Origin: Chelatococcus sambhunathii
GTDB lineage: Bacteria > Pseudomonadota > Alphaproteobacteria > Rhizobiales > Beijerinckiaceae
Length of the DNA: 64,000 bases
Direction: 5' to 3'
NCBI RefSeq assembly: GCF_001418005.1
Contig: NZ_LIOL01000001.1
Location: forward strand, 372,001 to 436,000
Shown here: positions 21,676-37,400 of the stretch, one piece after another
How the letters are laid out: the number at the start of each line of letters is the position of its first letter
Numbering within the stretch: position 1 is the stretch's first letter
Translations under genes and position numbers: made by a program
The notes under the pieces: generated by a model
Told to the model about the DNA's origin: nothing
Database searches by the model: none
What the model saw: the letters and a program-made list of their open reading frames with translations, nothing else

Positions 21676-22779
21676 TCAGAGCTTCGTCGGCGCATAGGCG
21701 CCGTCGCGCCACTCGAAGATGACATATTCGGGGTCGATGAGATCGCCCTTGGCGTCGAAGCGGAAGGTGCCGACCACCGTCTCGAAGCCATTGGCGCGCA
21801 GGTCTGCGGCCACCGCCTCAGGCTCCTTGCCGGCCCGTGCGACGGCGTCGGCCAGCGTCTGCACCGCCGCATAGTAGTAGAAGGCAAAGTTGTCCGGCTC
21901 GCCCTTCTTTTTCAGTTCCTCGTAGACGCTCTGGGCCGAAGGCTTCGCCTTCACGTCGGCGCTGAAGGTGAAGAGCGTGCCCGCCCCGCCCTCGCCGGCA
22001 ATGGACCAGAACTCGTTGGTGGCGAGGCCGTCCGCGCCGACGAAGCGCGTCTCGAGGCCGGCTTGGCGCGCCTGGCGCACGATGAGGCCGAGTTCGGTAT
22101 GATAGCCGCCGTAATAGACGATATCGATGCCCTCCTGCTTGAGGCGAGCGACGAGCGCCGAAAAATCACGCTCGCCGGCATTGACGGAGCCCTCATAGGC
22201 CGGCGTCACGCCCGCGTCGGCGAGGGTCTTCTTGGCCGCCTCGGCCAGGCCCTGGCCATAGACCTGCTTGTCGTGGACGATGGCGACTTTCTTGCCCTTG
22301 AACTTGTCGGCGATGAACTTGGCTGCGACGACGCCCTGCTGGTCGTCACGCCCGCAGGCCCGGAAGACGAGCTTCATGCCGCGCTCGGTCAGCTCCGGCG
22401 AGGTGGCCGAGGCGGTCATCATCAAGATGCCTTCCTCGTCATAGACGCCGGAGGCCGCGATCGAAGCGCCGGAGCACAGGTGGCCGACGACGAAGCGGAT
22501 GCCCTTCGACACCACCTGGTTGGCGGCGCTCACCGCGCTCTTGGGGTCACACTGGTCGTCAGCGATCTCGAGCACGAGCTTCTCGCCCTTGATGCCGCCC
22601 TTGTCGTTGATGGCCTTTACCGCGGCTTCGGCGCCGAGCCGCGCCTGGGCGCCGATGGCGGCGATCTGCCCGCCGGTGGCGGGGATGCCGAGGGCGAAGG
22701 TCACATCCGCCCGTGCGGGCGCCGCCGCCAGAAGCGCGGCGGCACAGGCGGACAGCATCAGTTTCGTCATCGCATTCAT
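21676..22779 (-). CDS. livK: Branched-chain amino acid ABC substrate-binding protein
   Basis: This encodes a 367-residue type I periplasmic binding protein of the HAAT/Liv family. A signal peptide (MNAMTKLMLSACAAALLAAAPARA) precedes DVTFALGIPATGGQIAAIG. Family features are VVSKGIRFVVGHLCSGASIA (ligand loop), AIVHDKQVYGQG and YYGGYHTELGLIVRQ. The ATG at 22779 has AGGGAGGAAAG upstream. A strong terminator follows. Branched-chain amino acids are the default ligand assumption; the adjacent amino-acid dehydrogenase supports it. Confidence 0.9.
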   Translation of the reverse strand: MNAMTKLMLSACAAALLAAAPARADVTFALGIPATGGQIAAIGAQARLGAEAAVKAINDKGGIKGEKLVLEIADDQCDPKSAVSAANQVVSKGIRFVVGHLCSGASIAASGVYDEEGILMMTASATSPELTERGMKLVFRACGRDDQQGVVAAKFIADKFKGKKVAIVHDKQVYGQGLAEAAKKTLADAGVTPAYEGSVNAGERDFSALVARLKQEGIDIVYYGGYHTELGLIVRQARQAGLETRFVGADGLATNEFWSIAGEGGAGTLFTFSADVKAKPSAQSVYEELKKKGEPDNFAFYYYAAVQTLADAVARAGKEPEAVAADLRANGFETVVGTFRFDAKGDLIDPEYVIFEWRDGAYAPTKL

Positions 22780-22838
22780 GGTCTTTCCTCCCTTATCCGC
22801 CCCGTCCGGCAGTACCGGCGGTGCGATAGGTCTCGCGC

Positions 22839-23753
<915 letters not shown>

Positions 23754-23948
23754 GGCATTCCCCCCTTTTATTATGCGGCCTTATGAGCTGCCACGAGACT
23801 ACTCGCGGCCCGCGCTTTTGCAAGGGGATAGGTCAGTGCAACTGACCAACACCGCATGTGCAAGGCACCGGCCGGTTCCCTAAAGGAGCACTCCCGCCGT
23901 CACGAGGCAATGGGCGCAGGTGCCTGGCGCCGCCTTCGCCGATCGTCC

Positions 23949-24659
23949 TCAGGCTCCATCAGGCGAAGATGGCTGGGTGATCCTCACTGCCAGCGGCGTG
24001 AGGCCAGCAATGGTCGCCTCGATGACGTCCCCCGGCACCACCGCCCCGACGCCGGCCGGCGTCCCCGTCATGACGAGGTCACCAGGCTCCAGCCGGTAGA
24101 AACGCGAGAGGAGGGACAGCATGGGCGCCACCGGCCAGATCATGTCCGCGATATCGCCGCGCTGGCGGGTCGTGCCATTGACCTTGAGCTCCATTGCGGC
24201 ACGATCGAACGGTCCGGTCTCGGCGGCCGGCGTGATGGCGCCGACCGGCGCCGACTGCTCAACGTTCTTGGCGAAGTCCCACGGCCGTGCCAGATCCTTC
24301 GCCGCCGCCTGCAGGTCGCGCCGCGTCATGTCGAGGCCGACGGCATAGCCGAAGACGATCCTTGCCGCCGCTTCCTCGTCGAGGTCCTGCCCCGCCCCGT
24401 CGATGGCGACGACCATCTCGAGCTCGAAGTGGTAATTCTTCGTCTGCCGCGGATAGGTGATCTCGCCGCCCCCAGGCATCACCGTCTCGGCCCATTTGGT
24501 GAAGAAGAAAGGCGGCTCGCGGTCCGGATCCCGCCCCATCTCGCGCGCGTGCTCGGCGTAGTTGCGCCCGACACAGAACACGCGGCGCACCGGGAAGCCG
24601 GCCTCGCGGCCGACCACGGGAATGACGGGCGTCGGCGGCAGGGCGAACAGCGTCTTCAT
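23949..24659 (-). CDS. Fumarylacetoacetate hydrolase (FAH) family protein
   Basis: This encodes 236 residues, the size of single-domain FAH enzymes such as fumarylpyruvate hydrolase. RVFCVGRNYAEHAREMG, the acidic metal-site pattern YHFELEMVVAIDG (E-x-E), VFGYAVGLDMTRRDLQ and PGDLVMTGTPAGVG are all present. Such enzymes cleave 3-acylpyruvates or decarboxylate oxaloacetate; the exact substrate is unresolved. It stands alone on the minus strand, 195 bp before livH. Confidence 0.9.
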   Translation of the reverse strand: MKTLFALPPTPVIPVVGREAGFPVRRVFCVGRNYAEHAREMGRDPDREPPFFFTKWAETVMPGGGEITYPRQTKNYHFELEMVVAIDGAGQDLDEEAAARIVFGYAVGLDMTRRDLQAAAKDLARPWDFAKNVEQSAPVGAITPAAETGPFDRAAMELKVNGTTRQRGDIADMIWPVAPMLSLLSRFYRLEPGDLVMTGTPAGVGAVVPGDVIEATIAGLTPLAVRITQPSSPDGA

Positions 24660-24811
24660 CGGCGGCCTCTCGAAATCGTCGCAACGCCCCTGCTATAGGC
24701 CATGGACAAGAGCGCGTCGACGCCAGACGGCGGCCGTCCTGCCCGCAACCAAGAACACTGGCAGGCCGTGGGCCGTCGGCCCCGTTGCTCCCGGCGAAGT
24801 GCCCTTCCCGA

Positions 24812-25921
24812 TCAGTCGCGCGGCGGCAGATGCGCCGACAGCGCATCGATGTCGATGAAGTGGCCAGCACGCTCGCGCTTGGCCGCGAGATAGCGGATGT
24901 TCTCGCTGGTCGGCCGGCCAATGACGCGCTGCTCGTCGACGACGGCAAGCCCCGCCGCCTTCAGCGCCGCGATCTTCTCCGGGTTGTTGGTCATGATGCT
25001 GACGCTGGCGACACCGAGCTGGCGCAGCATCTCGGCGGCAAAGTCGAACCGGCGCTGGTCGAGCCCGAAGCCGAGGATCTCGTCCGCGTCATAGGTGTCG
25101 AAGCCCTGCGCCTGCAGCTTGTAGGCGCGCATCTTGTTGGCGATGCCGTTGCCGCGCCCTTCCTGGTCGAGATAGAGCAGGATGCCGCCGCCGTTCTCCG
25201 CCATCCACTGCACGGTATTGCGCAACTGGTCGCCGCAGTCGCATTTGAGGCTGCCGAAGAGGTCGCCAGTGAGGCAGGCCGAGTGCAGGCGCACCGGCAC
25301 CGTCTGCGCGAGGTCCGGCCGGCCGACGACGATGGCCACCTGGTCGCGCAGCCCCTCGCCGCCGCGGAAGACGACGAACTCCGTCTCGCTGGCCCCCTCG
25401 AGCGGCACCGGCGCGCGCCCGACGATGCGCAGCGAGCGCACCTGGCTCAGGCGAAAGGCGGCGATGTCGTCTTCAGAGACGGCCACCACATCGGCTAGCG
25501 CCGGGTCTTGCGGCGAGACCGACACGGTGACGACCGCCGGCAGGACAAGCGACAGGCGCGCCAGCTCGAGCGCCGCCTCGTCGAGCGGCTGCAGGCAGCC
25601 GACGGGCGCGTCGAGCCGCGCATCGCTGGCGAGCGACAGGTGCATGACCCGGCGCAGGTCGATCTCCGGCAGGGCGATGATGCCGGCGCTCGCCCGTTCC
25701 GCCCCGAGACGCCGCAGGCGCGCCGTCGGCAGCACCAGCCGGGCCCGATCGGCCGCCTTGCGCTCCAGCGCCGCCGCGAGTTCCTCGTCGAGGCCCTCGA
25801 TCCCCACGGCCAGCACGGAGACCCCGCGTCCGGTAATGCGGACGGGGCGGCCTGCACGGAACTCCGCCAGCGCCCGTTCGACGCTGATCTGGCCGCGATC
25901 CTTGATAAAATCTGAACTCAT
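24812..25921 (-). CDS. GTP cyclohydrolase II (variant)
   Basis: This encodes about 369 residues. The C-terminal 200 residues are GTP cyclohydrolase II, which opens GTP to a 2,5-diamino-6-ribosylamino-pyrimidinone phosphate. The zinc site is ACLTGDLFGSLKCDCGDQL, followed by LLYLDQEGRGNGIANKMRAY and LGFGLDQRRF. The usual YLRQEGRGIGL reads YLDQEGRGNGI here, so an Arg is replaced by Asp. The N-terminal 165 residues resemble a degenerate DHBP synthase-like domain. An in-frame ATG at 25945 is an alternative start. It is divergent from the RibD-like gene, and context suggests a cluster-specific paralogue rather than the main riboflavin enzyme. Confidence 0.85.
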   Translation of the reverse strand: MSSDFIKDRGQISVERALAEFRAGRPVRITGRGVSVLAVGIEGLDEELAAALERKAADRARLVLPTARLRRLGAERASAGIIALPEIDLRRVMHLSLASDARLDAPVGCLQPLDEAALELARLSLVLPAVVTVSVSPQDPALADVVAVSEDDIAAFRLSQVRSLRIVGRAPVPLEGASETEFVVFRGGEGLRDQVAIVVGRPDLAQTVPVRLHSACLTGDLFGSLKCDCGDQLRNTVQWMAENGGGILLYLDQEGRGNGIANKMRAYKLQAQGFDTYDADEILGFGLDQRRFDFAAEMLRQLGVASVSIMTNNPEKIAALKAAGLAVVDEQRVIGRPTSENIRYLAAKRERAGHFIDIDALSAHLPPRD

Positions 25922-26155
25922 CAGCGGTGAACTCTCGTGGGCCATAGTTCTGTGGCCGTGAAACCTGCCGGTCCCCACGAACCGCAAAACATGCGACACA
26001 TGTGTATCGAAACGATGTCCGGCAAGGCTCTTCCTGTGGCGCGACGGCTGATATGTCTCCTGCGGCGCCGGCCATGCCATGGCGGCACGCCCGTTGCCGA
26101 TGTATGAACAGGGCATGCCTTCGACGAATGACGATGCCCTACCCGGCGGGAAACC

Positions 26156-26956
26156 ATGCAGCAGCAAGAGGGCCCTGTGACCACACCCGACGAGATGGAC
26201 GGGCGTTCCACGCCGGTGGATTGCTTAACACATCGTGCGCTGGCGCGCATAGCCGATGTGCCGCAGGGCAGCACCCTCGTGGTCGCACAGCTCGGACAGT
26301 CGCTTGACGGGCGTATCGCCACGCCCACCGGTGATTCCCGTTACATCAACCGGGCGGCGGCGCTCGACCATCTCCATCACCTGCGAGCGGCCGTCGATGC
26401 GGTCGTCGTGGGTGTCGGCACGGTCATCGCGGACGATCCGCAACTCACCGTGCGGCGCGTTGCCGGGTCGAACCCGGCCCGGGTCGTGCTCGACCCGCGC
26501 GGGCGCCTGCCGCCGGACGCCCGCTGCATGACGGGCCCTAATGCGCGGCGCCTCGTAGTGAGCGGCGCCTCCGTCCCACGCCCGGCGGGGGTCGAGGAGG
26601 TTGTCCTGCCGCTCGCCGGCGGCCGGCTCGATCCGCATGCCATCATCGCGGCTCTGGCAGCCCGCGGGATGCGCCGCCTGCTGATCGAGGGGGGCGCGCG
26701 CACCATCTCGGCCTTCCTCGATGCCGGCTGCATCGACCGGCTGCATCTCCTCGTCGCGCCCATCATCATCGGCTCGGGACGGGCCGGGCTCGAGCTAGCG
26801 CCGATCGGCCCTCTAAGCGAGGCGCTCAGGCCGGCGACCGACATCTATCCGCTTGCTGACGGCGACATTCTGTTCGACTGTGACATGAGGCGCCGCAACG
26901 GGGAGGCCAGCCTTGTCGCCGAGACCGATGCACGAGGGCTACGGCCCCACGGCTAA
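26156..26956 (+). CDS. RibD-type pyrimidine reductase, stand-alone
   Basis: This encodes 266 residues equivalent to the C-terminal reductase domain of RibD only; no deaminase zinc motif is present. Motifs are VVAQLGQSLDGRIATPTGDS, VDAVVVGVGTVIADDPQLTVR, and MRRLLIEGGARTISAFLDAG with DRLHLLVAPIIIGSG. The family reduces the ribosyl side chain of the GTP cyclohydrolase II product to ribityl using NADPH. Divergent pairing with the GCH II gene links the two. Its 3' end overlaps the cytochrome b561 gene. Confidence 0.88.
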   Translation: MQQQEGPVTTPDEMDGRSTPVDCLTHRALARIADVPQGSTLVVAQLGQSLDGRIATPTGDSRYINRAAALDHLHHLRAAVDAVVVGVGTVIADDPQLTVRRVAGSNPARVVLDPRGRLPPDARCMTGPNARRLVVSGASVPRPAGVEEVVLPLAGGRLDPHAIIAALAARGMRRLLIEGGARTISAFLDAGCIDRLHLLVAPIIIGSGRAGLELAPIGPLSEALRPATDIYPLADGDILFDCDMRRRNGEASLVAETDARGLRPHG

Positions 26957-27464
26957 GTGGCTGCACTGGCTCATGGCGCTCGCCATCCTGACCACGATCC
27001 CGCTCGGCATCGCCATGGTCAATGCGACGCCGGGGCCAACCCAGAACGCCCTCTACGACCTGCACCGCTCCTTCGGCGTCACGGTGCTCGCCCTGGCGGC
27101 CGTGCGCCTTTCGGTCCGCCTCGTGCGCGGAGCGCCGGCGCCCCATCCCTCGCTCGGCCGCCTGCTGCAGGCGCTATCCGTCACGGTGCACCGGGCGCTC
27201 TACGTGCTCATCTTCCTGGTACCGCTGCTCGGCTGGGCCGGGACTTCGGCCTTCGGGGCGCAGATCACGGTCTTCGGCCTCTTCGTGCTGCCGCCGATCC
27301 TCCCCAAGGACGAGGCCCTGTCGGAGACGCTGCTCGGCCTGCACAAGCTCGCCGCCTTCACGCTGGCGGCGCTCGCGACCCTGCATATCGGCGCCGGCCT
27401 CTGGCACGGCTTCGTGCGCCGCGACGGGGTGCTGGAGCGGATGCTGCCCGCCCGCCGCTACTGA
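26913..27464 (+). CDS. Cytochrome b561 family protein
   Basis: This encodes a four-helix membrane cytochrome b of 178-183 residues. Candidate haem ligands are His in KWLHWLM, YDLHRSFG, VHRALYVLIF and TLHIGAGLWH. The family passes electrons between the quinone pool and periplasmic partners. TTG at 26913 is six bases after GGGGAGG, so it is better supported than ATG at 26928. Either way the gene overlaps the RibD-like gene by 29-44 bp in another frame, which implies co-translation. Confidence 0.85.
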   Translation: MSPRPMHEGYGPTAKWLHWLMALAILTTIPLGIAMVNATPGPTQNALYDLHRSFGVTVLALAAVRLSVRLVRGAPAPHPSLGRLLQALSVTVHRALYVLIFLVPLLGWAGTSAFGAQITVFGLFVLPPILPKDEALSETLLGLHKLAAFTLAALATLHIGAGLWHGFVRRDGVLERMLPARRY

Positions 27465-28312
27465 TCGCCTGTCGTCGGCACGGCGAGGAGATCGGCGTGA
27501 CCGACAAGGCAGCGCGATGCCTGAGCACGTGCAGCGCGCCAGGCGGCGAGCCGGTCCGCCGCCACCTGTCCGGTCTCGCCCACCGCGGCAGCCGTGCCGT
27601 CGGCGAGCATCGCGACGAGCGCCCGTTCGCGCTCGGTCAGTCGCCAGGGGCTCGCCGCCTCGCTGACGGTATAGCCCGCACCACGAAAGCCGTCCGCGAG
27701 AAGCCCGGTTGCACGCGGCCCGGCCGCCGGACCGAAGCCCTTGTCGCGCTGCTGGTGGGCGAGGAAAGCGCCGTGCACCGCCTCATCGTCCGAGTGCGGC
27801 GGCTCCCAAGCCTCCCGGCCGTCGTATGTCAGCGCCGTATAGAAGGGCAGCCTTGCCACCGCGACCGCTTGCACGAAGGTCTCGATCCACGCCGCCGATA
27901 CGAGATCGAACAAGGCGGCCGCCGTCACGAGATCGGTCGGCGCCGCGAGGAGCGGCCCGATACCGCCGGAGAGGTCATGCGCGATGAAGGAAACCCCGAT
28001 GCGGCGCCCGGCGGCGGACAGCACAAGGCCGCCGGTGTCCTCGGCGAAGGTCGCATCGGCCCAGCGGCGCAGCTCCTCGCGCGCCTTCGCGAGCAGGAGG
28101 GCATCGTGATCGACGAGCCGCCAGTACTGCTCCGGGCCGAGCTGTGGCGCCATCGCCCGGAGGTTGGAGCCGGTGCCGCAGCCGAGATCGAGGACATGCA
28201 CCGGCTGCCGGTCCGCCACCGCCGCGGCGGTCGCAGCCAGGAGATCGCGGTTGCGCGCCGCATGGTCGGCCGGCTCGCGCAGGGCGAGCCATTCGGCGGA
28301 AAAGCCGCTCAC
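27458..28312 (-). CDS. Class I SAM-dependent methyltransferase
   Basis: This encodes 284 residues. VHVLDLGCGTGSNLRAMAP (residues 38-56) is the SAM-binding motif I, with RLVDHDALLLAKA as the acidic post-motif. The rest is less conserved, so the acceptor is unknown. Its ATG overlaps the glycosyltransferase stop by 4 bp (ATGA), making it the last gene of the dehydrogenase-PTPS-glycosyltransferase-methyltransferase operon. The stop overlaps the convergent cytochrome b561 stop by 7 bp. Confidence 0.85.
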   Translation of the reverse strand: MSGFSAEWLALREPADHAARNRDLLAATAAAVADRQPVHVLDLGCGTGSNLRAMAPQLGPEQYWRLVDHDALLLAKAREELRRWADATFAEDTGGLVLSAAGRRIGVSFIAHDLSGGIGPLLAAPTDLVTAAALFDLVSAAWIETFVQAVAVARLPFYTALTYDGREAWEPPHSDDEAVHGAFLAHQQRDKGFGPAAGPRATGLLADGFRGAGYTVSEAASPWRLTERERALVAMLADGTAAAVGETGQVAADRLAAWRAARAQASRCLVGHADLLAVPTTGDQ

Positions 28313-29370
28313 GCCGCCCTCCCCCGTCCGGCCAGCGAGCGGACGACGCCGGCGATCGCGGCCGCGGCATCGTCCCAGCGCGGCAGCGCCTGTCCCGCAT
28401 GCCAGGCGGCATCCGCCATCGCCGAACGCCTCTCCCGGTCGCCGAGGACCGTCTCGAGCGCTGCGGCAAGGGCAGCCGTATCGCCCGGCGGCACCTTGAG
28501 CGCGGCGGCATCGGGTACGCGCTCGTCCGCCGCCCCGACGCGGGTCGTCACGATGGGCAGGCCACGCGCCAGCGCCTCCGTGAGGACCATGCCGTAACCT
28601 TCATAGTGCGAGGCCATCACGAAGAGGTCGGCCGATGCATAGGTGCGCTCCAGCGCCGCATCGTCACAGGCGCCTGCCAGCGCGACGCGACCGGCAAGCC
28701 CCGCCCCGGCGATCAGCGCCCGCAGCCGCGCCGCCTCCTCCGGCGCACGGTCGAGGCTGCCGACGATGGTGGCGCGCCACGACAGCGTGGAAAGGCGTGC
28801 GAGTGCCGCGACAAGAACGTCATAGCCCTTGCGCGGCGAGACGGCCCCGACGGCGATGAGATGCGGCGGCTCGCCATCGGCGGGCGCGCGAGAGGCCGGA
28901 TCGGTGCCCGGTTCCGCGATCGTCAGCCGATCGGCGGCAACACAGAATTCGCACGCGAGCACCCGGCCCGTCGGCACGCTCGTCGCGACGACGGCATCGA
29001 CCGCCGCAAGCGCCGCACGCTCGCTGGCGAGGAGCTGCCGCCGCGCCGCGTCGGAAAGGCCGGTCTCATGGCCGAGCGGATGGTGCACCAGCGCCACGCA
29101 CCGCCTGCCGCAGCCGCGCAGCAGGGAGGCCGGCAGGGCGCCGCAGGCGAGCCCGTCGATGAGGAGCACGGCATCGCGCGGCATCGCCGCGAAGGCCGCC
29201 GCGGTTGCCGCAAGCTCGGCCTCGGTCGGAAAGGGAAAGCCCGCCGCCAGCGGCAGGTGGACGATGTCGACGCCCTGCGCCGGCAGGTCGTTGAGCATCC
29301 GTCGCGCATAGGCATAGCCGCCCGTCGGGCTGGCGAGGTCGCCCGGAATGGCGAAGACGACGTCAGGCAC
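28309..29370 (-). CDS. Glycosyltransferase family 4
   Basis: This encodes a 353-residue GT-B fold glycosyltransferase. The C-terminal half has YASADLFVMASHYEGYGMVLTEALARGLPIVTT, the EX7E nucleotide-sugar motif of family 4, and PHLIAVGAVSPRKGYDVLVAALARL. No membrane helix is seen, so it likely acts in the cytoplasm on a soluble or membrane-face acceptor. The 5' end overlaps the PTPS-like gene by 8 bp and the 3' end overlaps the methyltransferase by 4 bp. This tight coupling suggests it decorates the same product. Confidence 0.9.
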   Translation of the reverse strand: MPDVVFAIPGDLASPTGGYAYARRMLNDLPAQGVDIVHLPLAAGFPFPTEAELAATAAAFAAMPRDAVLLIDGLACGALPASLLRGCGRRCVALVHHPLGHETGLSDAARRQLLASERAALAAVDAVVATSVPTGRVLACEFCVAADRLTIAEPGTDPASRAPADGEPPHLIAVGAVSPRKGYDVLVAALARLSTLSWRATIVGSLDRAPEEAARLRALIAGAGLAGRVALAGACDDAALERTYASADLFVMASHYEGYGMVLTEALARGLPIVTTRVGAADERVPDAAALKVPPGDTAALAAALETVLGDRERRSAMADAAWHAGQALPRWDDAAAAIAGVVRSLAGRGRAA

Positions 29371-29770
29371 GGGCCACCGGCCCCTCGAACCACGCCCGGG
29401 CCACGTGGCTCTCGTGCAGCGTCACGCGGATGTGATCGATGCCCTCCCCGCCCGGCCCGAGCGCGCCGCCGCGAGCCGCCTTTGCCATCGCATCGAAGAT
29501 GTGACGGCTCAGAAATTCCGTCGTTGTATTGCAGCCGGCAAACTGCGGCAGGTCGTCGAGATTGCGGTAGTTGAGCGGCGAGAGCACCGTCTTCAGCGCC
29601 TCGTGGGCGCGGCCGATGTCGACGACCACCCCCTCGGCCGTCAGTTCCTTCCGGAAAAAAGCCACATCGACGATGAAGGTCGCCCCGTGCAGGGCCTGCG
29701 CCGGCCCGAACAGATCACCGCGGAAACTGTGGGCGATCATGACGTGGTCACGAACCTCAACGGCATACAT
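29363..29770 (-). CDS. PTPS/QueD-fold protein lacking canonical catalytic residues
   Basis: This encodes 135 residues of the 6-pyruvoyl-tetrahydropterin synthase/6-carboxytetrahydropterin synthase fold. VVDIGRAHEALKTVLSPLNY and NTTTEFLSRHIFDAMAKAA are family features. Compared with QueD, zinc ligands H14 and H28 remain, but the second His of HGH is A30, the catalytic Cys position (four before H28) is A24, and the Asp-His pair is replaced (LNYRNLDD where QueD has LDHHYLND). The C-terminal Glu (LHES) remains. It is therefore probably not a standard PTPS or QueD. It lies 24 bp after the dehydrogenase gene. Confidence 0.85.
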   Translation of the reverse strand: MYAVEVRDHVMIAHSFRGDLFGPAQALHGATFIVDVAFFRKELTAEGVVVDIGRAHEALKTVLSPLNYRNLDDLPQFAGCNTTTEFLSRHIFDAMAKAARGGALGPGGEGIDHIRVTLHESHVARAWFEGPVARA

Positions 29771-29794
29771 GGCACCCTCCCTCGATCGGGCCTG

Positions 29795-30793
29795 TCATTG
29801 ATAGCGCACCGCAGTCATCAGCCCGCCCGCCTGCTCGTCGAGGATCGCGGGCAGCGCCTCCGGCAGATCGGTGAAGGCGACCTCGCCGGTGATCAGGTCG
29901 TCGAGCCGCGCGTCGGCGAGCAGCGAGAGCGCCTTGGCGAGGCGCCGCCCCGCCTCCCAGCGCGGGCGGCGCGAGGCCGCGACCTGCCCGACCTGCGAGG
30001 ACACGAGCCTGAGGCGGCGGGCGTGGAACTCGCCGCCGAGATGAACCGGCACCGCCTCGTCGCCGTACCAGCTCAGTTCGACGAGCATGGCCTCGTCGCC
30101 GCACAGCGACAGCGCTGTCGCGAGGCCGGCCGCCGTGCCGCTGGCGTGAATGACGACATCCGCCTCCCCCGGGGCCGCGCCCGGCAGGGCGAAACCGGCG
30201 CCGAAACGCCGCACCACCGCCGCGCGCGACGGGTCGGTATCGACGACGGTCACCTCCGCGCCGGGCAGGCCGGCACACAGGAACGTGACCAGGAGGCCGA
30301 CGACGCCGGCCCCCACCACCGCAATCCTGTCCCCCGGTCCCGCCCCGGCGTCCCAGACGGCGTTGAGCGCCGTCTCCATATTGGCGGCGAGCACGGCGCG
30401 GCGGGCGGGCACGGCTTCCGGCACCGCGGCGACGGCGGCGGCCGGCGCCGCGAACATCTGCTGGTGCGGGTGCAGCACAAAGACCGTGCGGCCGACGAGA
30501 TTTGCCGGCCCGGCCTCCACCAGGCCGACGGCGCAATAGCCGTATTTCACCGGGAACGGAAAGGTCCCCTCCTGCATCGGCGCGCACATGCGCCGGCGAT
30601 GGCTCCGGCGGCACAGGCCGTTGAAGACGAGGCGCTCCGTGCCGCGGCTGATGCCGCTGAACAGGGTGCGGACCATGACGTCTCCGGGCCCGGGCTCGAT
30701 CGGCGCGACGGGACGCAGTTCGGTGCGGCGCGGCTCCACGTACCACAGTGCGAAAATGCCGGAACCCTCGCGGTTCCTTGCGTTAATGCCCAT
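29795..30793 (-). CDS. BchC-like medium-chain dehydrogenase
   Basis: This encodes a 332-residue MDR-superfamily oxidoreductase. LFSGISRGTERLVFNG replaces the usual zinc-ligand region of alcohol dehydrogenases and resembles the YSGIS-GTE motif of BchC-type dehydrogenases. The Rossmann loop is VVGAGVVGLLV with acidic VVDTD, suggesting NAD. No catalytic-zinc Cys is in the usual place. It is the first gene of a four-gene operon. No other photosynthesis genes are nearby, so true BchC function is unlikely; oxidation of the cluster's intermediate is the better guess. Confidence 0.8.
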   Translation of the reverse strand: MGINARNREGSGIFALWYVEPRRTELRPVAPIEPGPGDVMVRTLFSGISRGTERLVFNGLCRRSHRRRMCAPMQEGTFPFPVKYGYCAVGLVEAGPANLVGRTVFVLHPHQQMFAAPAAAVAAVPEAVPARRAVLAANMETALNAVWDAGAGPGDRIAVVGAGVVGLLVTFLCAGLPGAEVTVVDTDPSRAAVVRRFGAGFALPGAAPGEADVVIHASGTAAGLATALSLCGDEAMLVELSWYGDEAVPVHLGGEFHARRLRLVSSQVGQVAASRRPRWEAGRRLAKALSLLADARLDDLITGEVAFTDLPEALPAILDEQAGGLMTAVRYQ

Positions 30794-30849
30794 CGCACTT
30801 CTCTTCGTTTTGCTCTATATCGCCGCGGCGCGACAGCGGACGGTGCCAG

Positions 30850-32679
30850 ATGACGGAACGGCTCGATCCTGTGACCCTCACCCTCATCGAGGGGGCACCC
30901 TCCTCATCTACGACACCGAGCGGAATGCAGTCCACCACGACGCTGCGGCGGCGACGGACCGTGGTCGGTGCGCTGAACCTCGCCACATGCGGCGCTCTCG
31001 CCGCGGCCATGGCATGGATCCTCTCCGCCGGCGGATGGAGCCTTCTCGACGGCCTCCTCCTCACCTGCTTTCTGCTCGTCACGCCCTGGACCGTGCTCGG
31101 CTTCTGGAATGCCATCATCGGCCTGTGGCTGCTGCACGGCCGACGCGAGGGACTTGCCGAGGTCGCGCCCTTCGCCAGCGCCGGCAACTCGGGCGAGGCC
31201 GTATTCCTGCGTACCGCCGTGCTTATGACGTTGCGCAACGAGGATCCGGCGCGCGCCTTCTCGCGCCTCTCGGCTGTCGCCGAGAGCATCGCCCGCACCG
31301 GTCACGGGCACCACTTCGCCTATTTCGTCCTGAGCGATACCTCCCGTCCCGAGATCGCCGCCGCCGAGGAGGAGGCCTTCGCGGCCTTCCGCGCCACGCT
31401 CGCGGATGGTGCCAGGGCCGTCTATCGCCGGCGAGAGGACAATGTGGGCTACAAGGCCGGCAACCTGCGCGATTTCTGCGCCCGCTGGGGCGGCGAGTAC
31501 GAGCTGATGCTGCCGCTCGATGCCGACAGCCTGATGGCGGGCGAGACGATCGTCTCCATGGTGCGCATGATGCAGGCCTACCCCCGCCTCGGCATCCTGC
31601 AGAGCCTCGTCACGGGCATGCCGGCCGCGAGCGGCTTCGCGCGCATCTTCCAGTTCGGCATGCGCCACGGCATGCGGCCCTACACCATGGGAAGCGCCTG
31701 GTGGGCTGGCGATTGCGGGCCCTTCTGGGGTCACAACGCACTCGTGCGCATCGCGCCCTTTCGCGACGACTGCCATCTGCCGGTGCTTCGCGCTCGCCCC
31801 CCGCTCGGCGGCCCCATCCTGTCACATGACCAGGTGGAGGCTGCGCTCATGCGCCGCGCCGGCTACGAGGTACGCGTCCTGCCGGTCGAGGGCGGCACTT
31901 GGGAGGAAAACCCGCCCACGGTCGTGGATTTCGTCCGCCGTGACCTGCGCTGGTGTCTCGGCAACCTGCAATACATCAGGCTTCTCGGCCTGCCGGGCCT
32001 GCACCCCATGAGCCGCTTCCAGCTCCTGTGGGCCATCCTGATGTTCGTTGGCCTGCCGGCCATGACGGCGATGATCGCGCTGTCGCCCTTCGCGGTGCGC
32101 GAGGCACAGGCGGCGGGCGCCTTCCCGACGGCCCTGGCGGCTGGCCTCTACAGCCTTTTCCTGTTCATCTGCCTCTTCCCCAAGCTCGCCGGCCTCGCCG
32201 ACATCGCGCTGACGCGTGACGGGCTCACCCGCTACGGCGGCGGGGCGCGCTTTGCCCTTTCGGCCTTCATCGAGATCGTCTTCGCCTTCCTGCAGGGGGC
32301 GGTGTCCTCCTTCCGCACCAGCCTCTTCATGCTCGGCCTCCTCGCCGGGCGGGCACATGTGGGCTGGAACGGCCAGGAGCGGGATGCCCATGCTCTCTCC
32401 TGGGCAACCGCAGCGGCCGGGCTGTGGCCGCAGACCCTGTTCGGCCTCCTCGTCTGCGGCGCGCTGGCCTGGGCCTCGCCGGCCGCCCTCCTGTGGAGCC
32501 TGCCGCTCACGGCGGGCTATCTTCTCGCCATCCCCTTCGCCGTCGTCACCGCGCGGCCGGCCCTCGGTGCATTCCTCGCGCGGCATCGGCTCTGCGCCAT
32601 CCCCGAGGAATTCGACGAGCCTGCCGAGATCGCGGCCCTCGCACGCCCGGCGCCGCAGCCGGTGGCCGTCGCCGCATGA
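30850..32679 (+). CDS. mdoH: Glucans biosynthesis glucosyltransferase MdoH
   Basis: This encodes a 609-residue membrane glycosyltransferase of the MdoH/OpgH family, which polymerises glucose from UDP-glucose into osmoregulated periplasmic glucans at the inner membrane. Two N-terminal helices precede the family-2 catalytic region: VLMTLRNEDPARAF, FVLSDTSRPE, ELMLPLDADSLM, WGHNALVRI and VRRDLRWCLGNLQY. Several helices follow, from about residue 385. It is shorter than E. coli OpgH, mainly at the N-terminus. No mdoG is adjacent. Only 56 bp separate it from the divergent dehydrogenase gene. Confidence 0.92.
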   Translation: MTERLDPVTLTLIEGAPSSSTTPSGMQSTTTLRRRRTVVGALNLATCGALAAAMAWILSAGGWSLLDGLLLTCFLLVTPWTVLGFWNAIIGLWLLHGRREGLAEVAPFASAGNSGEAVFLRTAVLMTLRNEDPARAFSRLSAVAESIARTGHGHHFAYFVLSDTSRPEIAAAEEEAFAAFRATLADGARAVYRRREDNVGYKAGNLRDFCARWGGEYELMLPLDADSLMAGETIVSMVRMMQAYPRLGILQSLVTGMPAASGFARIFQFGMRHGMRPYTMGSAWWAGDCGPFWGHNALVRIAPFRDDCHLPVLRARPPLGGPILSHDQVEAALMRRAGYEVRVLPVEGGTWEENPPTVVDFVRRDLRWCLGNLQYIRLLGLPGLHPMSRFQLLWAILMFVGLPAMTAMIALSPFAVREAQAAGAFPTALAAGLYSLFLFICLFPKLAGLADIALTRDGLTRYGGGARFALSAFIEIVFAFLQGAVSSFRTSLFMLGLLAGRAHVGWNGQERDAHALSWATAAAGLWPQTLFGLLVCGALAWASPAALLWSLPLTAGYLLAIPFAVVTARPALGAFLARHRLCAIPEEFDEPAEIAALARPAPQPVAVAA

Positions 32680-33443
32680 GCAGGCTCGGCGCCACCTTGA
32701 CCGAATGGCGCGGGCTCGTCCGCTCCCTCGTCCTCTATCATGGCAACCGCGCCCGCCATCGCGCCATGGATGCGCTCCATCGCCGCTTCCTCGCCCCCGG
32801 GGACCTTGCCTTCGACATCGGCGCCCATGTCGGCGACCGGACCTCGTCGTTCCGCCGCATCGGTGCGCGTGTCGTCGCGGTCGAGCCGCAGCCGGGGCCG
32901 ATGCGCCTCCTGCGTCTCGTCCATGGCCGCGACCGGGACGTGACCCTCGTCGAAGCCGCCGTCGGCGCGGCGGAGGGGACCGTCGAACTCCACGTCAACA
33001 GCGCCAATCCCACCGTCACCACCGCCTCCGGCGCGTTCCTCGCCGCCGCGCGCGACGCCGATGGCTGGCGCGAGCAGCGCTGGGACCGCACCCTGTCGGT
33101 GCCGATGACGAGCCTCGATGCGCTGATCGCCCGCCATGGCTTGCCGGCCTTCGTCAAGATCGACGTCGAGGGCTTCGAGGACGCGGTCCTTGCCGGGCTG
33201 TCGCAGCCGCTGCCCGCGCTGTCCTTCGAGTTCACCACCATCGCCCGCGACGTAGCCGGCCGCTGCCTCGACCGGCTCGCCGATCTCGGCCGCTACCGCT
33301 TCAACCTGTCGCTCGGCGAGGAGCAGCGCCTCGCCTTCGCTGAGCCCATTGTCGCCGGGGCGATGCGGGACCATCTCGCCGCATTGCCCCAACGCGCCAA
33401 CTCGGGCGATGTCTATGCGACGCTCGCTGCAACGAGGCCCTGA
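32676..33443 (+). CDS. FkbM family methyltransferase
   Basis: This encodes 255 residues. FDIGAHVGDRTSSFRRIGARVVAVEPQP is motif I and post-I of FkbM methyltransferases, and FVKIDVEGFEDAVLAGL is the family's second motif. These enzymes usually O-methylate sugars or polyketides. The ATG at 32676 overlaps the mdoH stop by 4 bp, so the two are co-translated. Modification of the periplasmic glucan is a reasonable inference but unproven. Confidence 0.9.
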   Translation: MSRLGATLTEWRGLVRSLVLYHGNRARHRAMDALHRRFLAPGDLAFDIGAHVGDRTSSFRRIGARVVAVEPQPGPMRLLRLVHGRDRDVTLVEAAVGAAEGTVELHVNSANPTVTTASGAFLAAARDADGWREQRWDRTLSVPMTSLDALIARHGLPAFVKIDVEGFEDAVLAGLSQPLPALSFEFTTIARDVAGRCLDRLADLGRYRFNLSLGEEQRLAFAEPIVAGAMRDHLAALPQRANSGDVYATLAATRP

Positions 33444-33477
33444 GCGGCAGGAGACCGCCTTTTTCACAGGACAACGC

Positions 33478-34479
33478 ATGTCGAGAACCATTTGGGGCCT
33501 GCTCGCCGCAGGCCTTCTTGCCGCCGCCATACCATACGCCAGCGCCGCCGAACTCGCCGCCCGTGTCGACAACGACAGCGAGCCCGTGCTGTGCGCCGAA
33601 AAGGACAACGTCAGCCTCACCTTCGCCAATCCGGCCGTGAAGCACTTCCGTATCCAGGCGGTCCACCCAGTCTATCTCGGCATGCTCGACACCGACCGCT
33701 GGGCAGCCGACTGGACGAGCTGCGACATGACGGGCGACCCCGTGCATGTGGCCGAGCCGCGCCGGGTCACCTTCTATGAGGCGCCCGACCTTTGGCTGGT
33801 CGGCTATACCTATCCGTCCTTCTGGCGGCCCAACGATGTGCCGGTGCGCGTCGGCAATCGTGTCGAGCACGGCCTGCATCTCATCCAGGTCTGGGTGCGC
33901 TACAAGGAACGGGCCGAGGAAGTGCTCGTGCTCTACCCGCCGGACGGCTACTGGCGGGCTCGCCCGATACCGCCCGGCGACATGCGCTGGACGGCCTACG
34001 GCAGTTCCTTCCTCGTCGGCCCCGTCAAGGACGAGGGGCGCCCGGTGGTGGCGCTGAAGGACATTGCCTTCGATCCCGCGACGCGGACCTTCACGCTCGC
34101 CTTCGCCGACGGCGGCGAGGGCAAGGTCCGGCTCGCGGCCCTCGACGAGGAGCATCTCGCGCTCGATGTCTCCTTCTCCGGCGCCCTGCCGCAAGAAAGG
34201 CCTTTCGCAGCCTTGCGCTCCATGTATGTGATGGAGGCCAATGCCGACACGGCGCGCGTCGCCTGGCGCGCGCCCGGCGCCAAGGGGTGGGACGAATCCC
34301 CCGTCATGACCTTCCCGGGCGGCGAGGCGACGGAGCTGTGGACCGGACGCGTCGTGCCTTCGCGCCACAATACCAGCGCGCCGGACCTGATCTTCGGGCG
34401 CTTCTCGGACGTCCCGCCCAAGCCGGACAAGCGGGATACTGCTCCCAGGGAGGCCACGAGCACGCCGCTCGCTCAGTAG
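33478..34479 (+). CDS. Secreted protein of unknown function
   Basis: This encodes 333 residues. A Sec signal peptide (MSRTIWGLLAAGLLAAAIPYASA) is clear. The mature part is beta-rich in appearance and carries two Cys (VLCAEKD, TSCDMTG) that could form a disulfide, plus PPDGYWRARPIPPGDMRWTAYG. I do not recognise the family. AGGA lies before the ATG at 33478. It follows the FkbM gene by 34 bp and is probably in the mdoH operon, which suggests a periplasmic role in glucan handling. The last 7 bp overlap the convergent tamB. Confidence 0.65.
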   Translation: MSRTIWGLLAAGLLAAAIPYASAAELAARVDNDSEPVLCAEKDNVSLTFANPAVKHFRIQAVHPVYLGMLDTDRWAADWTSCDMTGDPVHVAEPRRVTFYEAPDLWLVGYTYPSFWRPNDVPVRVGNRVEHGLHLIQVWVRYKERAEEVLVLYPPDGYWRARPIPPGDMRWTAYGSSFLVGPVKDEGRPVVALKDIAFDPATRTFTLAFADGGEGKVRLAALDEEHLALDVSFSGALPQERPFAALRSMYVMEANADTARVAWRAPGAKGWDESPVMTFPGGEATELWTGRVVPSRHNTSAPDLIFGRFSDVPPKPDKRDTAPREATSTPLAQ

Positions 34480-37400
34480 TCCCATTCCATGCCGATGCCG
34501 ACGGCGCTCGAGCCGTCGGCTCCCGCCTCGCCCTGCAGCTTGATGCGGTCGGTGATGTCGATGTCGACGGTCACACGGCTCGAGTCCGGCGTCGCGCCCT
34601 GCTTGACGCCGAGATAGATGTTGTCGTCGATGCGCTTGCCGATGCCAACGGCCACATTGCCGCGAACGTCGGTGTCGATGTCGACCGCATCAACGCCGAG
34701 CGAGCGGCTGAGGTCGTCGAGCACCCGGTTGCCGCCGGCGAACTGCGCCACCGCCTGCGCCAGTTGCAGCGCCTGACCGGCCGTCAGGTTGCCTGACGGC
34801 TTGCCGAAGAGAAGCCGGGCCAGTACCTCGTCCTGCGGCAGCTCGGGCGAGGAGGAGAAGCGCAGGTCCGGACGCGAGGCGATGCCGTCGACGGCGACAC
34901 GCGCCGTCACGTCACCTGCCGGCGCCTCGGCCACGAAGTCGATCTGCGGATCGAGCGTGCCGGGGAAGGTGACGTTGCCGCGCGTGAAGGTGAGGCGCCG
35001 GCCGAGAACCTGGAAGGTGCCGCGGCGCATGGTGAAGCCGCCGTCGACGATCGGGTTCGACGACGTGCCGCGGATCGTGAGCGTGCCGCCGAGTTCGGCA
35101 TTGATGCCCTGGCCGCGCACCAACACGCGCCCCGACGAGGCGTCCACCGTGATGTCGAGTGCGGCGTTGAAGGCCCCGCCCGCGGCGCGCGCCCGCCGCT
35201 CCCGCTCGGCCCTGGCACGCTCGGCGACGCGCGGCGGCGCATTCCTGTGGCGCACCTCGATCGGCGTCACGGACGGCGGCAGGCGGTCCGGCACGAAGAT
35301 CTGCAGGTTCTCGACCGTCACGCGGCCTGAAACACGTGGGGTCGTGGCCATGGGGCCGGAGACCGCGAGGTCGAGGCCGACGACGGCATTGGTCGTATCG
35401 TTGGAGATGAGCTGGGCATTCGTCGCCCGCAGGGTGATGTTGCCCGGAAAGCCTGCGGCCGGATCGAGCGCGATGCGCCCGCTGCCGGTGATCGCGCCGC
35501 CGTTGCGCGCCCGCGCCGTGAGGCTCTGGATGACGAGCTCGCGCTCGGAGCCGGTGATCGTCGCATTGATGTCGGCGAGGAGGACGCCGTTGACGACGTC
35601 CTCGAAACGGCCGCCGACGAGGCGCACCGTGCCCTGCGCCCGCGGCGCGGCCATGGTACCGGTGAGGCGCAGGTCCGCCGTGGCCGAGCCGGCATAGCGC
35701 TGCCCGTCCGCCGCCGCGAGACGGTTGGCGACGGCCAGGTCGATGCGGCCCGCGATGGTGAGGTCGAGGTTGCCGTCAGGCGTCGTCGGCAGCGAGCCGG
35801 TGATGCGGATCGGCGCCTCTGAAATGCCGCGCACCGAGGCGTCGATCCCCGCCCGGCCGTCCGCCAGCGTCCCGCTCGCCTCGATGGCGAGCGGCGTCAG
35901 GCCCGCATCGCGGATCTGAGGCATGGTGAAGCCGCCGACCGACAGTCGGTAGCGCCCGTCCGGCCGCGCCGCGGTGCCGGCGATCTGCGCCTCGCCCGAC
36001 AGTTGGCCGGCGAGGCCGAGGCCCGGCTTGGCGAGTTCGGCGACGGTGAGCGGCAGGTTGCGGGCCGTGACGGCAAGATCGAGCCGCTCGCCGGCCGAGC
36101 CGGAGACCGCGAACGAGCCGCCGTCGGCATTGACCACGAGATCACGGATCGTGACCGCGCCCCCGCGCAGGGCGAACGCCGCCCCGCGGGCGACGGTGAC
36201 GCGCTGAGCGCCGCGCGAGGCGCTGGCGCTGTCCAGCGTCACGACCGTCTCGTCCGGGCGCATGGCGACCTGCGCGGTGGCGGCGACATCAACCCCGCGC
36301 ACGACGCCGTTAAGGACGAGGCGCGTCGCCTCGCGCGTCCCTTCCGCCGAGATCTCCGCCCGCGGCACGTCCACGCCCGATACCGCGAGCCTCTCGAGCG
36401 CGACCTTGCCGTCGGCCACGAACTGGCCGAGCAGGTCGCGCACGCGCACGTCGACGTCGGCCACGGCAAGCGATGCGCCGAAGCCCGCGAAATCGGACAC
36501 GCGCCCCTTGGCGGCGAGGTTCTGACGGCCGGCCTCGGCGGACAGGGTCAGGTCGAGGTCGACCGCGCCGGCCATCTCCATCAGCAGCAGCGGCGCGACA
36601 TCGCCGAGGTCGCCGGCCCGGAGCGTCAGCCGCCCGCTCGCCAGCGAAGCCGGCGAGATGGCGAGCGCGCCCTGCGCGCGGACGGAGCCGAGGCCGATGT
36701 CGAGATCCGATACCGCCACCGCCCCCGCCGCATCGCGTGCGAAGCGGCCGCTGCCCGCCGCCGGCTTGCCGTCGACGCTGCCCGACAGCGTGAGCTGGCC
36801 TGTGGCAGCGCCCGTGACATCCTGGGCCTCGATGTCAGCCGTCAGCCGCTCGATCGGCCGGCCGAGGGCGCTCGCCTCGTCGATGGTCAGGCGCAGGCGC
36901 GCATCGAGCGCATCGAGCGAGCCGGTCAGCGTCGCATCCACATTGCCGCGTCCGGTAACGCGCGCATCGAGCTGCGAGAGGTCCGGCAGGTCGAGCTTGG
37001 CCGTGACATTGGCCCGGTCCGCCGTCGCCGAGCCGTCGGCGATGAGGCCGACATGGGCGCCCGAGACGGAGAAGCGCTCGAAGCCGAAGCTGCCGTCCGC
37101 ATTGCGGCGGAAACCGCCGGACAGCCGGACATTGCGGCCGAGAAGGCCGTCGGCCTGCGCGACACCCGTCGCGAGGTCGCGCGCCATGCCGTTGAGCGTC
37201 ACCGCGAGCCGCGTCAGGTCGAAGCTTGCGGAGACATCCCCGGTGAGCGCCACGACGCCGGCGAGCGGCTGGTCCGTGAAGGCGCGCAGCGCCGCAAGGT
37301 CCGCCCGCTCCACATTGACCTTGCCGTCCACCGCATCGCTCGTGACGGTGCCGGAGAAGGTCGCGGCCAGCGGCGCCAGATCGAGCCGAAGGGCGGCGAT

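Follow-up and report, generated by a model that had tools for sequence, protein, structure and literature searches.

In Chelatococcus sambhunathii, a window of 64,000 nucleotides (contig NZ_LIOL01000001.1, positions 372,001 to 436,000; positions below are those of the window) carries, between 24812 and 30793, genes for a GTP cyclohydrolase II (GCH II, here RibA), a stand-alone RibD-type reductase and a cytochrome b561, together with a facing operon of four genes. These four, which we call the core operon, encode a dehydrogenase (ADH), a homolog of 6-pyruvoyltetrahydropterin synthase (PTPS), a GT4 glycosyltransferase (GT4) and a methyltransferase (MT), in the order ADH>PTPS>GT4>MT. Our analysis identifies the set as a genuine biosynthetic cluster that is widespread in bacteria and contains a repurposed PTPS fold, and the original prediction, made from the DNA sequence of this region, was right to treat the genes as a cluster. 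In the reading that we favor, at a probability of about 0.6, they form one biosynthetic unit for a glycosylated, probably methylated small molecule containing the 2-amino-4-oxopyrimidine ring of GTP (or a pterin). What our analysis establishes is the conservation and co-occurrence of the genes, the lineage of RibA and the active-site changes of the PTPS homolog; the substrates and the product are predicted.

The PTPS homolog of the cluster has an altered active site. Its residues were read against the canonical QueD of a genome of the same family at all 122 loci that we collected. This collection joins 36 loci from a class sample of Alphaproteobacteria (the window included), 6 of 20 plasmid matches and the 80 best-matching of at least 587 genome_contigs stretches that encode a PTPS relative; duplicates were not removed (L047 and L154 seem to come from a single genome), 13 of its loci are shorter than 10 kb, and the best 80 named loci are biased toward close relatives. 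At the position of the catalytic Cys we found Ala in 121 of the 122 loci and Gly in the other one. The third zinc-binding His is Ala throughout, with the two other zinc-binding His residues kept in 122/122, and the catalytic His is replaced by Tyr (111 loci), Phe (10) or Leu (1). The catalytic Asp is retained in 7/122, and a Glu that presumably anchors the substrate or ring is kept in 121, the last locus having a gap there. An earlier alignment, covering 29 of 42 sequences, gave the same residue picture, with Ala at the Cys position in 29/29. Judged by these residues, the protein is neither QueD nor PTPS and appears to be a repurposed fold. All six public records that we consulted nevertheless annotate it as 6-carboxytetrahydropterin synthase. 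It is the ortholog of Streptomyces coelicolor SCO6650 (129 residues, 157 bits), whose solved structure (PDB 3d7j) was deposited as "Uncharacterized protein."

We regard it as highly improbable that the PTPS homolog is the QueD of this genome, acting in the queuosine route. The protein is the only PF01242 match of the genome, which does encode QueC (G000:C1:466867-467541, L233), and no QueD lies in the 11 kb around QueC. However, the QueD model (TIGR03367) scores the protein at 36.9 bits against a cut-off of 89.25, the catalytic Cys and His are absent, and G283, a cluster-free genome of the same family, has QueC near a normal QueD. On the residues and the score together, an identification as QueD was rejected.

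The cluster is conserved across many genomes. The PTPS ortholog was detected in 36 of 289 sampled Alphaproteobacteria (E 1e-10), in 27 of 398 Pseudomonadota genomes (E 1e-20) and in 5 of 13 genomes listed for the family to which the window belongs, and relatives also occur on plasmids. Among the 122 loci, the genes found most often near the PTPS gene were those for GT4 (114), ADH (111) and MT (106), followed by the reductase (77), an MdoH-type glucosyltransferase (68), RibA (44) and cytochrome b561 (42). Rarer neighbors were an FkbM-domain gene (31), the conserved protein encoded at 33349-34479 (22), a creatininase-family gene (13), a ChvA-like exporter (13) and a CDP-alcohol transferase (9). 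The full ADH>PTPS>GT4>MT order on one strand is present in 87/122 loci, and ADH, PTPS and GT4 stand in order in 104/122. By record titles, the set occurs in Hyphomicrobiales, Rhodospirillales, Burkholderiaceae, Alcaligenaceae, Xanthomonas and Thiodictyon. The core genes are present in Beta- and Gammaproteobacteria as well as in Alphaproteobacteria; beyond Pseudomonadota, the core operon is carried by a plasmid of Streptomyces fungicidicus and by metagenome-assembled genomes titled Acidobacteria (L148) and Gemmatimonadota (L151). The core operon is a true conserved cluster whose gene order recurs beyond chance, and the co-occurrence of the families that had been anticipated extends over many genera and several phyla.

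Presence and absence controls tie two further enzymes to the PTPS homolog. We compared 36 PTPS-positive with 36 PTPS-negative Alphaproteobacteria genomes, the controls being those with the lowest handle numbers (plus G070 and G283) among 253 genomes without a match; G002, G006, G008, G017 and G019 were skipped, and small genomes were included. An ADH ortholog (E 1e-20) was present in 36/36 positive and 0/36 negative genomes, and a stand-alone reductase ortholog in 30/36 and 0/36, respectively. The reductase matches in 24 of the control genomes lie in frames of at least 366 amino acids, the size of a bifunctional RibD, save for a single weak hit (36.9 bits, G032), whose frame has 288 amino acids. 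Matches to RibA (E 1e-10) occurred in 28/36 positive and also in 16/36 negative genomes, and GCH II as such is thus not specific to the cluster.

The window's RibA has an intact active site. It retains the three zinc-binding Cys residues and the residues at Escherichia coli Tyr105, Asp126 and Arg128. The same six residues are present in 44 of the 45 loci with a RibA match. The exception is S. fungicidicus, where the RibA adjacent to the cluster has Met at Tyr105 and a creatininase-family gene is also present. The archaeal formylamino-pyrimidine deformylase ArfB belongs to the creatininase superfamily, and another cluster member gave a weak match to ArfB. In S. coelicolor, this Tyr-to-Met change leads to the formylamino product, the GCH II SCO6655 making a formylamino-pyrimidine. 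The Met-containing RibA and the creatininase of S. fungicidicus would fit a pyrimidine precursor derived from GCH II; this pairing is a single case, because the other RibAs beside a creatininase gene (13/122 loci have such a gene) keep Tyr.

A phylogenetic tree of 78 RibA rows (42 adjacent to the cluster, 21 away from it and 15 from PTPS-negative genomes) places the window's protein within a 14-row group made up of cluster-adjacent copies only (support 100/99). For this tree, a 44-bit match of G034 was left out, and the RibA of G246, whose cluster is at the contig start, was counted as away. One branch (95/99) splits off 47 rows that hold 14/15 of the PTPS-negative, 20/21 of the away-from-cluster and 13/42 of the cluster-adjacent RibAs. 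The cluster label changes 10 times on the tree, compared with 26.2 times in shuffles, none of 500 of which was as low. A 25-row group that extends more widely around the window's row has weak support (86/60). By its position in the tree, then, the window's RibA is a member of a cluster-associated lineage.

The original prediction also held that the genes do not serve riboflavin synthesis, and this stands in part. Contig C11 of the same genome carries glyA-nrdR-ribD-ribE-ribH-nusB (glyA, nrdR and nusB named by eye) with a bifunctional RibD, and the deaminase, RibE and RibH, none of which is among the proteins around the cluster, are located there. We rejected the window's genes as a riboflavin operon, since ribD, ribE and ribH lie elsewhere; RibA itself may also serve riboflavin. 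The exclusion is not secured for RibA, because no other canonical GCH II was found in the genome. In a second GCH II homolog, a RibB protein, the GCH II domain is devoid of zinc cysteines. A third (L163:5524-8177) is of the PRK07198 type (760.7 bits, cut-off 403) and is followed by a DUF1688 gene, a pair that we associate with uracil catabolism and that probably has this role here. That the RibA and RibD-like proteins could be the genome's only riboflavin enzymes is accordingly borne out in part for RibA and contradicted for RibD by the full ribD, ribE and ribH on C11. In the window's group, riboflavin may not need a canonical GCH II, because G070 and G283, of the same family, and four further genomes (G014, G009, G040 and G016; loci L181, L182, L174, L177, L179 and L172 in all) have ribH and gave no GCH II match other than a domain fused to RibB, in which the zinc cysteines are missing. 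The window's RibA may act in the cluster, in riboflavin synthesis or in both.

In the pathway that we propose, RibA would open GTP to a diamino-ribosylamino-pyrimidinone phosphate, as its intact active site suggests, and the stand-alone reductase would, by homology, convert the ribose to a ribityl chain. The best match of this reductase among solved structures is 6p8c, an archaeal-type enzyme annotated as a reductase of diamino-ribosylamino-pyrimidinone phosphate (DARPP). The PTPS homolog may bind this ring, or a pterin derived from it, and together with the BchC-like dehydrogenase could remodel the polyol side chain; GT4 would then attach a sugar, MT would supply a methyl group, and the product would go to the cell envelope or be built there. 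An identification of ADH as BchC itself was rejected, its score against the curated BchC model (44.2 bits) being far under the cut-off of 291.25. GT4 matches MshA- and PimA-type proteins among solved structures, and the model of MT (pLDDT 96.2) has structural matches to generic class I methyltransferases only. A more specific version of the pathway, which we consider quite unlikely, is a pterin route that bypasses GTP cyclohydrolase I (GCH I). Here, GCH II and the reductase would yield a ribityl-diaminopyrimidinone, the dehydrogenase would re-oxidise C2', the PTPS homolog would aid closure of the ketone on the 5-amino group to a dihydropterin, and GT4 and MT would decorate this as an envelope-linked pigment or redox compound.

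It is also conceivable, and in our judgment unlikely, that the starting point is the dihydroneopterin triphosphate of GCH I (FolE), which the core operon would convert to a pterin glycoside as in cyanobacteria, with RibA and the reductase being riboflavin-type neighbors or, alternatively, a backup GCH II and a pterin reductase. FolE is encoded in the genome, RibA is the genome's sole canonical GCH II and is not near the PTPS gene in 78/122 loci, and the PTPS fold with its kept Glu and the glycosyl/methyl pair resemble the cyanopterin system as far as it is set out in the accessible text of PMC3546692. Yet the PTPS homolog no longer has the catalytic residues for dihydroneopterin triphosphate, the occurrence of the stand-alone reductase is linked to that of the cluster, and RibA belongs to the cluster-associated lineage.

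Several observations weigh against a GTP-derived product that starts from RibA and the reductase. RibA is adjacent in just 44/122 loci, and 13 of the 42 cluster-adjacent copies are among the 47 rows set apart from the window's copy. Seven PTPS-positive genomes of 90-100% completeness (G095, G096, G128, G184, G205, G229 and G231) have no match to the window's RibA, and the seven GCH II domains aligned from such genomes lack the zinc cysteines (the weak matches L186-L188 stand outside the alignment); for this reason, the pathway may not always begin with a canonical GCH II. Six PTPS-positive genomes (G064, G096, G175, G231, G233 and G271) have no clear stand-alone reductase, and no reductase was seen in the S. 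fungicidicus stretch. In two of the six plasmid records, both from Streptomyces (L079 and L080), the stretch around the PTPS homolog has no relative of the window's ADH, GT4 or MT. Finally, among the matches listed from the openly licensed literature there was no paper on the cluster and no described product. The earlier label of an undescribed cluster is to be limited, because the PTPS ortholog SCO6650 already has a solved structure.

The PTPS homologs of these two Streptomyces plasmids (L079:10001-10426 and L080:8001-8399) lie near genes for a metallo-beta-lactamase-fold hydrolase, a cupin, a sigma factor and a BTAD regulator.

Genes for envelope functions often flank the set. The neighbor at 30850-32679 belongs to the MdoH family of glucosyltransferases, a feature of periplasmic glucan synthesis; one member of the ChvA/NdvA-type glucan exporter family scored 835.7 bits against a cut-off of 733; and plasmids of Agrobacterium and Streptomyces have flippase-like and CDP-alcohol transferase genes. 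The recurrence of such genes (MdoH, ChvA, flippase or CDP-alcohol transferase) beside the set suggests an envelope destination, so that the cell envelope is probably where the product arrives or is built. These neighbors also favor a different explanation, which strikes us as rather improbable, namely, that the genes chiefly modify a periplasmic glucan or an envelope lipid, with the GTP-derived part minor or absent and the PTPS fold binding another ligand. MdoH is adjacent in 68/122 loci and a ChvA/NdvA-type exporter in 13/122, other loci have CDP-alcohol transferase and flippase-like genes, and in six Beta-titled loci (L128, L129, L139, L125, L118 and L112) an MT match, a ChvA-type exporter and MdoH are neighbors on the opposite side of ADH. 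In contrast, MdoH is missing from the surrounding 8 kb or so in 54/122 loci, a number that includes loci truncated by contig ends, and ADH, PTPS and GT4 remain together without it.

Among known systems, toxoflavin-type clusters share GCH II, a RibD-type protein and a methyltransferase with the set, a likeness by description, whereas those clusters are not known to include the PTPS homolog, ADH or GT4. The early riboflavin, or archaeal DARPP, route (GCH, ArfB and RED) is alike in its GCH II, its archaeal-type stand-alone reductase and, at some loci, the creatininase family; the cluster differs in lacking a deaminase, lumazine synthase and riboflavin synthase and in adding PTPS, ADH, GT4 and MT. 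Of the products described so far, the closest are pterin glycosides; one of these is cyanopterin, which is methylated and is made with a dedicated glycosyltransferase (PMC3546692, accessible text). The cyanobacterial pteridine glycosides (cyanopterin, BGluT/PgtA) share with our proposed product the combination of pterin, sugar and methyl group and the dedicated glycosyltransferase; the accessible text of that article describes no GCH II or RibD-type reductase, and the PTPS homolog of our cluster is catalytically altered. In the accessible text of a 2026 review of bacterial pterins (PMC13259868), the terms "glycosyl," "6-pyruvoyl," "cyclohydrolase II" and "Streptomyces" are absent, and "glucosyl" and "cyanopterin" appear in the reference list only. 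In S. coelicolor, the GCH II SCO6655 is five gene numbers away from SCO6650, a proximity by gene number, and PMC2853524 (accessible part) lists SCO6655 in a table whose genes are said to be mostly upregulated in the stationary phase. With the product identified, a new class of glycosylated metabolites derived from GTP would be named, the 6-carboxytetrahydropterin synthase annotation corrected in many genomes and the solved structure 3d7j explained.

Genes of the cluster and its neighbors in the window
Gene product	Position	Strand	Remarks
RibA	24812-25921	-	369 aa from ATG; canonical GCH II domain; PRK08815 526.7 bits, cut-off 464
RibD-type reductase, deaminase domain absent	26156-26956	+	RibD_C 143.6 bits
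Cytochrome b561	26913-27464	+	PF01292 (Ni_hydr_CYTB); possible in-frame ATG start at 26928
MT, class I S-adenosylmethionine-dependent methyltransferase	27458-28312	-	Core operon
GT4 glycosyltransferase	28309-29370	-	PF00534 103.7 bits; core operon
PTPS homolog	29363-29770	-	PF01242; core operon
ADH, BchC-like MDR-family dehydrogenase	29795-30793	-	Opens core operon
MdoH-type glucosyltransferase	30850-32679	+	NF003963 927.9 bits, cut-off 884; divergent from core operon
FkbM-domain methyltransferase	32676-33443	+	PF05050; accessory
Conserved protein, about 360 aa	33349-34479	+	Accessory; 33391 used as start for alignment and model

A search for riboswitches with Rfam returned no match in window positions 22000-36000 up to E 0.5, and the sole Rfam matches in six relatives were to a group II intron and to a tRNA, both of them over 5 kb away from the gene for the PTPS homolog. 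The conserved protein (33391-34479) has no NCBIfam match, and its model (pLDDT 71.7) gave no structural match at E ≤0.001. The N-terminal region of RibA upstream of the GCH II domain has no Pfam match; an alternative, longer open reading frame from TTG extends to 26167 and would overlap the reductase gene. The reductase and b561 genes overlap by 44 bp, and the junctions of the core operon are exactly 24, -8 and -4 bp. The positions, orientations, families and junctions of the seven genes, as originally given, all proved correct, but that gene set left out the adjacent MdoH and FkbM genes, which are frequent companions of the cluster.

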